The notes under the pieces are model-generated. The model was given only the letters and a program-made list of their open reading frames with translations, made no database searches and was not told the origin of the DNA. DNA of 64,000 nt, from the NCBI GenBank assembly GCA_900175165.2, contig FWWN02000619.1:64671-128670 (forward strand). The letters run 5' to 3'. The DNA comes from Rhizomucor pusillus. Its lineage: Eukaryota; Mucoromycota; Mucoromycetes; Mucorales; Lichtheimiaceae. Shown here piece after piece: positions 32,044 to 36,133 of the stretch. A program made the translations under genes and the position numbers. Numbering within the stretch: the stretch's first letter is position 1; the number at the start of each line of letters is the position of its first letter.

Positions 32044-33282
32044 ATGAGACCATTTTCTGCAATTATTGTGCTCTACCTGGCCGCGCTCCTGGCTTGTCCA
32101 TCCTCCCTAGCTGCGACCGTAAAGCGGGAAGATGACGAGGAGAAGAAAATGACATGCCGCAACACACACACCGTCTTCTCCGAGAACACAGACGGATGGA
32201 AAGCTTACGGCAGCCCAAAGGGAACGTTTGAACTGACAAGTGACGGATTGGAAATGAGGCTTTTGAAGCCTGAAAAGCCCGTTGAACGTCTCATCGACAA
32301 GGAAACGGGTATAAATACCTTGCTTTTTCTTGGTGGATTATTTAAATAATTCGTGATATGTTTGCAGAGCTACCCTACAACAGCGATGCTGGTGTTGGTC
32401 CGACGTTCAACTCGACTACATACATGCACTATGGCAAATTTACAGCTGTAGCCAAAGCAGCACCCAAAGGAGGAGCTGTCACCGCGTTTATCCTGATAGC
32501 TGACAACCGCGACGAGATCGATTTTGAGTTTACAGGGGGTAAGGATTATTGCTCGTATACGCTTCATCCCAAAACTTACGTTAACATATTGTGCGGGGAC
32601 TTTGGGTAGGAGCGCCACACACTGCTCAGTAAGTGCACAGACACCCAGTGGAAGAAAGAGATCTACATGCATGATACTTACAACGCGTGCTTCTAGGACC
32701 AATTTCTTCTGGGGAGAACGTCCAGAGTACACTGTAAACGGAGCATCCCACCAGGTTCCAGGAGGTTCCGTCTACGATGAATTCCATACATACACAATCC
32801 ACTGGTAAATATGTAGAGGTTGGATGCTAATGTATATGGAGGAAAATTCATGCAAAGATAAATGCTTGCAGGACTCCGGAACGTATTGTGTGGTACATTG
32901 ACGACAAACAAGTTCGGATCCAAGAGAAAAAGAAGACATGCAAAGATGGTGTTTGCAAGTATCCATCGCATCCAGCGTGAGTTTTCTCGTGCCTTCAGAG
33001 ATAGACAAAAAATGCTCACATGCAAAGGGAAATATTTCGTTGTTCTCTAACAGTCGCGTCCAAGTCGGCTTGTGGGATGGCAGCTTTGAATACGGCACTG
33101 CAGAGTGGGCCAAAGGTCCCATCGATGTGAGTTATGCAAATAATATATATGCATACAGAGTCCAGCACACTGATCACTCGAAAATGGCTATCACATAGTG
33201 GGATGGCGTGAAGCATATTTCAGCGTATTTAAAGGAAGTACGCATTGAATGCGACCCGGACTATAACGAAATAGTTGAATGA
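32044..33282 (+). CDS. GH16 Crh-type wall transglycosylase (stops at TGA-CTA)
   Basis: Seven exons (32044-32308, 32368-32538, 32610-32628, 32697-32804, 32872-32976, 33054-33126, 33199-33282) give 274 residues. The signal peptide is MRPFSAIIVLYLAALLACPS plus SLA. The catalytic motif DEIDFEFTGG carries the GH16 nucleophile and acid/base Glu. Then QTNFFWGERPEYTV, FHTYTIHWTPERIVWYIDDK and RVQVGLWDGSFEYGTAEWAK are typical of Crh1/Utr2 enzymes, which link chitin to beta-glucan. Exon 3 is 19 nt long. Most Crh enzymes have a GPI anchor. Here the frame ends at TGA 33280-33282, but the same frame stays open to 33516 and encodes such an anchor signal (see the next entry). Confidence 0.88.
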
Positions 33283-33516
33283 CTACCGGGGGATACGGAT
33301 CCCCTCACGACCTCTCCAGAAAGCGTGCCTCTAGATCCGTCAAATCCTACCATCTGGCGACCCAGACACCCAGTTGATGATAAACCAAAGTTACACCCCT
33401 CTCCATCTTCCAATGCTGCAGTGTTCCCACCTTTATTTACTATTCCTAACATTCTAGCTGCTCTAGTGCCCCACTTTGCTGTTGCTGCTCTTCTTTCATA
33501 TCTTCTAAATTTATGA
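33280..33516 (+). other. candidate stop-codon readthrough extension with GPI-anchor-like tail
   Basis: The GH16 stop TGA at 33280 is followed by CTA, and the next 77 codons in the same frame are all sense up to TGA 33514-33516. The predicted extension begins LPGDTDPLTTSPESVPLDPS, is Pro/Ser/Asp-rich, then has SSNAA (possible omega site) and a hydrophobic C-terminus (NILAALVPHFAVAALLSYLL). That is the layout of a Crh-type linker plus GPI signal. I tested splicing by eye: GT at 33274 or 33238 with AG ends at 33319, 33323, 33334, 33365 and 33373 does not restore this frame. TGA CTA is a known efficient readthrough context. Alternatives: a recent nonsense mutation or a base-call error. Confidence 0.6.
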
Positions 33517-33576
33517 CAGTATCCCCCCTTCAAAAATGTTGAGTTTCTTGGTTTTAGCTGCTTTCGAAATGGGACA

Positions 33577-33760
33577 GAAAGAGAGAGAGAGAGCGCGAAC
33601 ACACACACACACACGAGAGACTGGCAAGTCTTGATCCACCAAAAGGGAAAAGAAAGGAATTCTTCAAGAAATGTTGCTGCGTTTTGCTGTGTTGTCTCCC
33701 CATCTGTATACTCTTCTCTTCCTCTCTTTTTCTTTCTTTCTTTCTTTCTTTCTGTGATAT
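33577..33760. repeat. microsatellites (GA)n, (AC)n and (TTTC)n
   Basis: A GAGAGA run at about 33580-33592, an ACACAC run at about 33599-33614 and a TTTC repeat at about 33727-33752. They lie in the 5' flank of the next gene. The pyrimidine-rich tract to 33820 ends in AAACAG two bases before an ATG and may be the 3' end of a 5' UTR intron. Confidence 0.7.
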
Positions 33761-33822
33761 TTATCTTACTCTACTCTCTTTCCCTTTCTCTCTCTCTTTC
33801 ATTTTACATTTTCCAAACAGCG

Positions 33823-36133
33823 ATGTATTCAGCCGCAAACTGGAAGACATCGCTGACGCGTGTGGTTACACACCATGACTCCCAGCGTCGCATCGCACCC
33901 ACCGTGGATGAAAAGAAACCTCTAAAGCAACCGCCAGCATCCCTGGTGAAGCAGCGTGTGCTGCAGTATTTTGCCAAAGCTGTGCGTTCTCCGTTGTCCC
34001 ACCAGGAACTTGCCAGCGTTCCAAATCTGGCTGATGGTGGTGGCAGGCGCGAAAGCAGTAAGAAACAAGACAACAGTAACGACAGCGAAGAAGAAGATGA
34101 TGACGACAGCGACGCAGCACCGATCACACCGCCGCAGCGAGCAGTGACAAGGGATAAATCTGGACAAGGAGCGGCGTTCATGTTCCAGCCATGGATGCAA
34201 CGCTCTGCGTCCTCGCCTCACAATCCTATCACTAGTCAGGGCCAGTTGCAGCTTAAAAAGGCAATGACCTGGCTAGGAAGACCTATCCATCAACTCTCAG
34301 GTCGCCGGCGAGCGCCTGGAAGCTTGCCCCTACGCTCTGTACTTTCAACATCCGTGCGTAGCATGTTGCATAAATATCAAGCACGCCGTTCACCTGTTAC
34401 TGAAGACTTTATCGCCAGTAGCAGCAGTAGCAGTAACAGTAGCAACAGTGACGAAGAATATACAGAAGATGACGATGAACCCGAGGACGACAGCGATGAA
34501 GAGGACGTAGAAGAATTGGAACAAGTCAAGACAAAACAAGTACCACAAGGCAAAGTAAAAGATATAATCAGTGAACACATAGAAGAAGGAAAAGAGGATA
34601 AGAAGGAAGAGGGAGGAGAAACAGAGGATGACGATGATGATATTAGCACGATAGCAGATGGACGCACTGCTTTTGACTGTGATCAGGAACACCGGCCCAA
34701 TATCTCGCCTCTCAAAGCTTCGCCTCAATCGCCCAAGGAACTACTCTCTGGACGGACAATGCACTGCAAAGGTATATATATATACTCATTCGGTTTTTGA
34801 GTGAAAACAGGGTTTTTGACCAAACCGATGACATTTCACAGTTTTGCAAGTCACCAACCTAGCATCTTCTAAAGGTGAAATGATAATGCATATCTTTCTA
34901 GTAGAAAGTAACGACTAATTTTTTTGCTTCAGAGCATGATTATGAACTGGATATAAGAGTAAACGATGTCAGCAAAGCATTGCTGCGAGGCACCATGGCT
35001 GGAACAAAGACGACACGATGTTTGGCACCTCCAAACCAGTCCATTATCTTGTAAGCTTTTTTTCCATCATTTTCCATTACTAGTTGTATATTACAAGCGA
35101 TAGCAGTGGCATTGCTCATTCCAGCTCAAGTGATGCAGAAGATCCTTTTGAACTAGCGCTCGTCGTAGCTATCAAGCCCAAGCCAGGCATAATGAAGACA
35201 ATGGCGCGCGCCGTGCGAGGTATGGCCGGTCCGCAAGAGAAACTCTTGCCAGCTGCGCCCGTCGTTGTTGGCATTGCCAGATTATCATCGTCGGATAATC
35301 CTCAGCTATCTTCGTGGCGACGAGAGATACGACGCTACCGGCTAGCAAATCCGAATAACGTGAAAGGCTGGGTCATTGACGTAACCGTAGAAACGAGCCT
35401 GGAGGACGTGCAACCGACTGATACTGCTACGACACGCCGGGCTCCGGCCTCGCCGGCCCAACGGGTACCATGGACCTATTACACATATATGTCCGGACTA
35501 TCAAACCTTTCTGAAGAGGAGGAAGAGAACGTGCTGGATTGCAGTGTGGAAGCTCTAACGGCATCCATAACTCAATGCAGGACGGGCGGATTCTTGACGA
35601 TCTATGTTCGCAACACTCGATTTCCGGTATGAAAACGAACTTCCTCGTCTGGTTTGAAAAGTGCTGACATGATATCTACAACTGTCCTTGTAGACCTGGG
35701 AGCGTTTCTGGGTGGTGCTGCAGGATGATAGACTAGTGCTGTATAACTTTTCGTACAAGGTAAAAAACCACCAACGGGGTGTCAAAAAAACAAGGAGGCC
35801 ATCCAATGGGGAAGCTGAAATCAACACCTGTTTTAGGAACAAAGGGATCCCATCGATATCGTACCCCTATTCAACCTGATTCGAGTGGCTAAACCATCGT
35901 TTGACGATCAAGAGAATGTGTGCCTCTCCCGGACATACGGTCTGGTGCTACAATTCAGCCAGATGGCGGAGGAAACGGAGATGCAAGGCGCCGAAAACAA
36001 GATCTTTACATTCACAGACCATGCGATTGATTCGCTACACTGGCGCAGAGCACTTACTACTTATCTGCATCGTCGAACCAGTAGAGATGATGGAATGGAT
36101 ATGCTACCTGTAAATTCAAAGTATTTGTGGTAA
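33823..36133 (+). CDS. Anillin/Mid1/Bud4-like protein with C-terminal PH domain
   Basis: Five exons (33823-34771, 34933-35050, 35098-35626, 35694-35759, 35837-36133) give 652 residues in frame. The N-terminal half is disordered, with Ser and Asp/Glu runs. A middle block (DYELDIRVNDVSKALLRGTM, then PFELALVVAIKPKPG) resembles the anillin homology region. The C-terminus is a PH domain: GGFLTIYVRNTRFP, TWERFWVVLQDDRLVLYNFS, DPIDIVPLFNLIRV, CLSRTYGLVLQF, LHWRRALTTYLHR. Anillin PH domains share the GFLT... start and the C..R strand. Known family role: scaffold of the cytokinetic ring or septin collar. Intron 35051-35097 (47 nt) is short and its acceptor weak, so that join is the least certain. It could be an unrelated PH protein. 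Confidence 0.55.

Follow-up and report, generated by a model that had tools for sequence, protein, structure and literature searches.

The window analyzed here is a stretch of 64,000 nucleotides of genomic DNA from the mucoralean fungus Rhizomucor pusillus, located on a contig of 145,463 bases (C118) within a 24.45-Mb assembly. At positions 32044-33282, counted to its first stop codon, it carries a GH16 gene of seven exons, one of which is a 19-nt microexon. The labels CrhA, for this gene, and CrhB, for a paralogue on another contig, were coined in this analysis, and both are taken to be Crh-type GH16 genes. The features of the CrhA locus, in window coordinates, are as follows.

32044..32308, + strand: CrhA exon 1, with the start codon and a hydrophobic N-terminal signal sequence, MRPFSAIIVLYLAALLACPSSLAA (by eye); matches the NCBI protein P0001 exactly
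32368..32538, + strand: CrhA exon 2, where the GH16 core begins, with the DEIDFE catalytic motif
32610..32628, + strand: CrhA exon 3, the 19-nt microexon; matches P0001 exactly
32697..32804, + strand: CrhA exon 4 (gene model)
32872..32976, + strand: CrhA exon 5 (gene model)
33054..33126, + strand: CrhA exon 6 (gene model)
33199..33279, + strand: CrhA exon 7 before the stop, the end of the GH16 domain, with the last residues ECDPDYNEIVE
33199-33282, + strand: CrhA exon 7 including the TGA (gene model)
33280..33285, + strand: UGA stop followed by CUA, a fungal and mammalian readthrough context (PMC4207609, as described in its section 6)
33283..33513, + strand: candidate in-frame readthrough extension of 77 codons, homologous to the C termini of orthologues that have a sense codon in place of the stop
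33283..33405, + strand: Pro/Ser-rich linker that starts with LPGDxxP and contains a W-x-P motif (W at 33355-33357), both common to orthologues
33406..33420, + strand: SSNAA, candidate omega-site region (crude GPI rule)
33451..33513, + strand: hydrophobic C-terminal tail, ILAALVPHFAVAALLSYLLNL (crude GPI rule)
33514..33516, + strand: second stop codon, TGA, at which the extended form would end (from the sequence)

Up to the first TGA, CrhA encodes a protein of 274 amino acids that is 100% identical to the R. pusillus protein VTP01DRAFT_10187 (P0001), an NCBI model that terminates at the same TGA. The assembly from which P0001 derives has a contig of 1,176,777 bases, as opposed to the 145,463 bases of the contig examined here, so that the same CrhA stop is present in two separate assemblies. 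The CrhA product matches the GH16 domain (PF00722) with a score of 132.9 bits, compared to 127.3 bits for CrhB and a cut-off of 22. Among solved structures, the closest to it by sequence is 6ibu, annotated as “Probable glycosidase crf1” (E value of 2.9e-26), which is taken here to be Crh5 of Aspergillus fumigatus; the DEIDFE of CrhA aligns with DEVDWE of 6ibu, and the shared DE-x-D-x-E pattern is presumably the Crh catalytic motif. Judged by their domain, motif, and likeness to a characterized Crh enzyme, CrhA and CrhB are putative Crh-type GH16 transglycosylases. The match to 6ibu stops at CrhA residue 265 of 274, and the catalytic domain is therefore complete upstream of the stop. The stretch corresponding to the microexon at 32610-32628 starts one longer exon in CrhB, where the extra intron is absent.

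A sequence-only reading of this DNA had reported a TGA at 33280-33282 followed by 77 open codons, and the gene is indeed arranged in this way, with TGA-CTA, an open frame from 33283 to 33513, and a second TGA at 33514-33516; the Pro/Ser-rich linker, the SSNAA sequence, and the hydrophobic C terminus that it had described in the extension are all present as well. In a census of 264 kb that included the window and covered all frames on both strands, TGACTA accounted for 63 of 20,919 stop codons. Only five of these 63 are followed by at least 60 open codons, and the single one of the five whose frame has a GPI-like end by the crude rule is CrhA itself. The codon-usage coding potential of the extensions is too weak to be decisive (−2.7 bits for CrhA and +5.7 bits for CrhB), although frame 0 scores highest among the three forward frames in both genes. 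The base at position +7 is C or T at the two stops; as G at this position is optimal for readthrough in mammals (PMC4359377), the CrhA and CrhB context is not the optimal one. No consistent stimulatory RNA structure was detected downstream of the two stops, with z scores that ranged, depending on the stretch, from 0.64 to −1.46 for CrhA and from 1.70 to −2.74 for CrhB. A local 7-bp hairpin whose first base is the sixth one downstream of the CrhA TGA was discarded, its stretch being no better than shuffles (z of 0.64).

Past the second stop, the frame reopens for 427 codons (window positions 33517-34800) into what appears to be a separate downstream gene. GA, CA, and TTTC simple repeats lie between the end of CrhA and the next open frame, at 33577-33800, where they overlap subthreshold matches to plant microRNA families.

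The paralogue CrhB was found by a GH16 search of the genome on contig C128, at approximately 48.3 to 49.7 kb (L012:620-2014, minus strand). Its model reads 278 amino acids up to a stop codon that is again TGA-CTA (L012 841-836, minus strand) and that occupies the same alignment column as the stop of CrhA. Behind this stop, 72 codons are open, and the end of the encoded tail, in which the hydrophobic stretch is followed by a terminal NLRY, is GPI-like by the crude rule. In the 264-kb census, 60 of the 20,919 stops were followed by at least 60 open codons with a GPI-like end, a count that, like that of TGACTA, includes CrhA; assuming independence, the chance of finding both properties in a second gene is 63/20,919 × 60/20,919, or about 9e-6. 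The two other GH16 genes in the genome (on C7 and C345) encode ordinary in-frame hydrophobic tails and end in TAG and TGA-TCC (by eye), so the leaky stop is not a general feature of R. pusillus GH16 genes.

The CrhB extension is also represented in a Logan protein, P0076, which spans the CrhB stop with a Trp residue at that position and has all 72 extension residues unchanged. Three residues upstream of the stop, P0076 has Val in place of the Ile encoded in the genome analyzed here, and its source is therefore a different strain or a closely related species. Trp is also found in P0076 at three other sites that are TGA in this genome, and the protein has the appearance of a gene call made in the bacterial manner, with TGA decoded as Trp; because of these three sites, the Trp at the stop presumably stands for TGA as well and is unlikely to reflect a TGG codon. 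None of the 48 homologue matches is a full-length R. pusillus entry identical to CrhB, which may thus be missing from the annotated proteome.

The closest relatives of CrhA show what kind of sequence lies behind the stop. Five orthologues, from Circinella, Dichotomocladium, Fennellomyces, and two Lichtheimia, have a sense codon at the stop column (encoding I, H, S, E, and E) and then continue into a tail. Across the junction, CrhA NEIVE*LPGDTDP (the asterisk being the stop) aligns with NQIVDSLPGDSEP of Fennellomyces and NEVVEILLGDEEP of Circinella. Against a profile of the five sense-orthologue tails, the CrhA extension scores 16.2 bits in frame, and nothing in three control sets does as well: 2,000 shuffles, 982 control frames (downstream frames of 60 to 100 codons drawn from 200 kb of this genome), and the other five reading frames of the extension DNA. 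Already over its first 4, 8, and 12 residues, the CrhA extension outscores every one of the 982 controls. To judge from these comparisons, the CrhA extension is clearly homologous to coding tails and appears to be old coding sequence. The likeness of the CrhB extension to the same tails is weak: it scores 2.5 bits, a value reached by 9 of 2,000 of its own shuffles and by 35 of 982 controls, and 3.7 bits when CrhA is added to the profile (8 of 2,000 shuffles and 16 of 982 controls as high). At the start of the CrhB extension, 4 of 982 controls do as well over the first 4 or the first 8 residues and 25 of 982 over the first 12.

These relationships bear directly on the possibility that both stops are ordinary ones, with CrhA having lost its anchor through a recent nonsense change that left the frame behind it as an undecayed relic and with the open frame of CrhB being a coincidence. 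Sense codons in the five nearest orthologues make a recent change in CrhA possible, and the weak codon-usage signal in the extension is in line with it. A recent nonsense change is indeed sufficient for CrhA taken alone; it is not sufficient for CrhB, in which a clade-wide stop is nevertheless followed by an open, GPI-like frame. This conclusion comes from the distribution of the stop among Mucorales. The CrhA and CrhB proteins, each cut at the stop, served as queries that yielded 77 distinct homologues, of which 42, together with CrhB, were aligned. The resulting 43 rows include 39 from Mucorales, to which the aligned genera other than R. pusillus are assigned here by assumption, and 4 basidiomycete outgroups. 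Left out of the alignment were 31 proteins from other fungi or unnamed sources, the Logan R. pusillus-type fragments P0012, P0074, and P0076, and the Apophysomyces protein P0060, which has a sense codon and a tail, as does P0043.

Slightly more than half of the Mucorales rows (21 of 39: CrhA, CrhB, and 19 others) end exactly at the stop column; the 19 come from Fennellomyces, Circinella, Phascolomyces, Lichtheimia, Dichotomocladium, Zychaea, Radiomyces, Mucor, Rhizopus, and further genera. Nine rows have a sense codon there and a tail of 49 to 82 residues, counted from that codon, and the remaining nine end at other columns. In three related Crh-like proteins from Mucor plumbeus and Parasitella (P0055, P0056, and P0061), the annotated C terminus lies four residues upstream of the column, immediately behind HN, YN, or DN, which possibly represents a shifted stop or the edge of the gene model. 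A search designed to reach extensions in other species, with the last-exon alignment and with Trp at the stop, produced 513 candidates, none at an E value of ≤10, and had no power, as it missed the known positive P0076.

In the tree, CrhA clusters with the five sense-codon orthologues (support 98/98), whereas the clade of CrhB (support 95/92) also contains six orthologues, each from a different genus, and all seven of its rows end at the stop column. The tree requires three changes between stop and sense if the rows with other ends are not counted and nine if all three states are included. Since the whole CrhB clade ends at this column, the CrhB stop must be old, and an extension that was never read should therefore have decayed; a 72-codon open GPI-like frame in this position is no fresh relic. 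Each of the three separate stop/sense changes runs into a C-terminal tail, and such a tail is most easily explained as having been kept behind the stop throughout. The 19 other Mucorales proteins that end at the column may be merely soluble, as ordinary termination would have it. However, the occurrence of the same TGA-CTA and of such a frame in a second gene, with odds near 1e-5, the clade-wide CrhB stop, and the three changes into a tail together make the ordinary-stop explanation unlikely.

The anchored form could also arise by splicing if an unannotated or alternative intron excised the TGA. Candidate introns were enumerated with GT-AG and GC-AG ends in CrhA and CrhB and with AT-AC ends in CrhB only. 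The sequence-only reading had held that five alternative acceptors, inspected by eye, do not restore the frame. This needs correction: the scan found frame-keeping GT-AG introns, five in CrhA and six in CrhB, and a GT is located 42 bases upstream of the TGA in both genes. However, each of the five CrhA candidates removes conserved residues, and four of them have a non-YAG acceptor, compared to YAG at the end of all 11 introns in the CrhA and CrhB models. In both genes, every candidate removes residues that are encoded contiguously in orthologues. Even the mildest CrhA candidate, 33274-33390 (donor GTTGAA, acceptor CAAAG), takes out the conserved LPGD and W-x-P linker. No donor-acceptor pair occupies corresponding positions in CrhA and CrhB, and the NCBI model likewise terminates at the CrhA TGA. 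The candidate introns were accordingly rejected, for deleting conserved residues and for their mostly poor acceptors, and removal of the stop by splicing is considered very unlikely.

An explanation in which the TGA is a sequencing error or is decoded as selenocysteine is hardly credible. The CrhA stop appears in two assemblies, and CrhB has the same TGA, both of which speak against an error. The genome does contain a tRNA-Sec-like match, of 35.7 bits against a cut-off of 47; the same tRNA-Sec search, however, also matches all 14 prokaryote controls, 9 of them below the cut-off. A place for CrhA among the selenoproteins was rejected, with no SECIS family match in the 33000-34300 region and the best tRNA-Sec match falling below the cut-off.

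The nature of the anchor is a separate matter. Crh enzymes are, as a rule, GPI anchored, and CrhA and CrhB resemble the ascomycete members of this group, such as A. fumigatus Crh5 (presumably 6ibu), in their GH16 domain and DE-x-D-x-E motif. In the six ascomycete Crh relatives tried, the GPI-like signal is part of the main reading frame, whereas in CrhA and CrhB it lies behind a stop. All GPI-like calls were made with a crude home-made rule, just as the signal sequence was judged by eye. This rule is passed by the CrhA and CrhB extensions, 8 of the 9 sense tails, and all 6 of the chosen ascomycete relatives, and by none of the 16 short forms tried (out of 21 in total). It is a loose one: out of 5,000 shuffled versions of each extension, 150 (CrhA) and 87 (CrhB) also pass. 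The readthrough could thus be real, with the extension serving as a plain transmembrane anchor or some other tail, an explanation that overlaps with the favored one as far as readthrough is concerned. Besides the crudeness of the rule, the NLRY that follows the hydrophobic stretch at the end of the CrhB tail would fit such a plain anchor. On the other hand, a C-terminal hydrophobic run after small residues characterizes both extensions, all but one of the nine sense tails, and each of the six ascomycete relatives tried, which, along with the usual GPI anchoring of Crh enzymes, makes a tail of another kind improbable.

Taken together, the data suggest that CrhA and CrhB quite probably undergo programmed UGA-CUA readthrough that would produce a secreted enzyme along with a minor anchored form. 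The proposal of the sequence-only reading that readthrough adds a GPI signal and yields soluble and anchored forms gains support from the CrhB paralogue, the homology of the orthologue tails, and the common stop column. A minority of ribosomes would read through the first stop, UGA-CUA, of each gene, while normal termination would release a soluble secreted enzyme of 274 (CrhA) or 278 (CrhB) amino acids. Upon readthrough, one residue would be inserted at the UGA, followed by 77 or 72 residues, respectively, with a GPI attachment signal at the end, and the extended form, made from the same mRNA, would become anchored to the membrane or the cell wall. With the leaky stop placed just past the catalytic domain, the enzyme would be retained in both forms. 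Some Mucorales lineages would have swapped the stop for a sense codon, so that their enzyme would always be anchored. From these sequences we infer ribosomal readthrough, a certain ratio of the two forms, a GPI anchor in preference to a plain membrane one, and a biological benefit of the arrangement.

This leaky-stop arrangement is probably old and ancestral in Mucorales. It is moderately likely that the ancestral Crh protein of the order already had a leaky UGA where its catalytic domain ends, which would have been kept order-long as a switch between the free and GPI-anchored forms with a hidden tail, several lineages having become constitutive by a single codon change.

Both the stop context and the mechanism have precedents. 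In Ustilago maydis, CUA after UGA is sufficient for efficient readthrough, and peroxisomes are the destination of the enzymes in the fungal readthrough cases described in section 6 of PMC4207609. CrhA and CrhB share with the U. maydis genes tpi1, rpe1, and art1, as covered in that article, the same stop context and the principle of one mRNA that serves two locations. A further similarity to this system is that certain fungal species encode the peroxisomal signal within the main frame instead of behind a readthrough stop (PMC4207609, section 6). Unlike these cases, in which a peroxisomal signal is added to a metabolic enzyme (as given in the same section), CrhA and CrhB would add a linker and a GPI-like signal, 72 to 77 residues in all, to a secreted cell wall enzyme, and would do so in two paralogues. 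UGA-CUA is likewise the core motif of mammalian LDHB, MDH1, AQP4, and others, according to PMC4359377 and PMC12233894. The differences from these UGA-CUA(G) cases are that position +7 in CrhA and CrhB is C or T, not G, that the extension is of another kind, and that the organism belongs to another kingdom. The nearest case noticed is in Drosophila, where some readthrough extensions are predicted to contain transmembrane domains (PMC3840789) and could similarly add a membrane segment; these extensions are eight in number and predicted only, and GPI is not mentioned in the main text. No case of readthrough that adds a GPI signal was recognized in open-licence PMC full text, among the matches listed. 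The context and mechanism are therefore known, while the destination and the gene family appear to be new and the arrangement appears to be conserved.

If this interpretation is true, the same leaky stop would set the proportion of free to membrane-anchored forms of a wall-building enzyme in two genes and, perhaps, throughout a whole order of molds. Many Mucorales Crh proteins that are annotated as soluble would then have an unannotated anchored form, and any change in termination efficiency could shift wall assembly.

The other genes known for readthrough in fungi show various stops in this genome: the second PGK gene ends in TAA, and those for TPI and RPE end in TAG. One PGK gene (L046, on C110, minus strand) ends in TGA-CTA-G; the frame behind it encodes LDGQKPKM up to the next stop and may represent a cryptic extension of the peroxisomal type.
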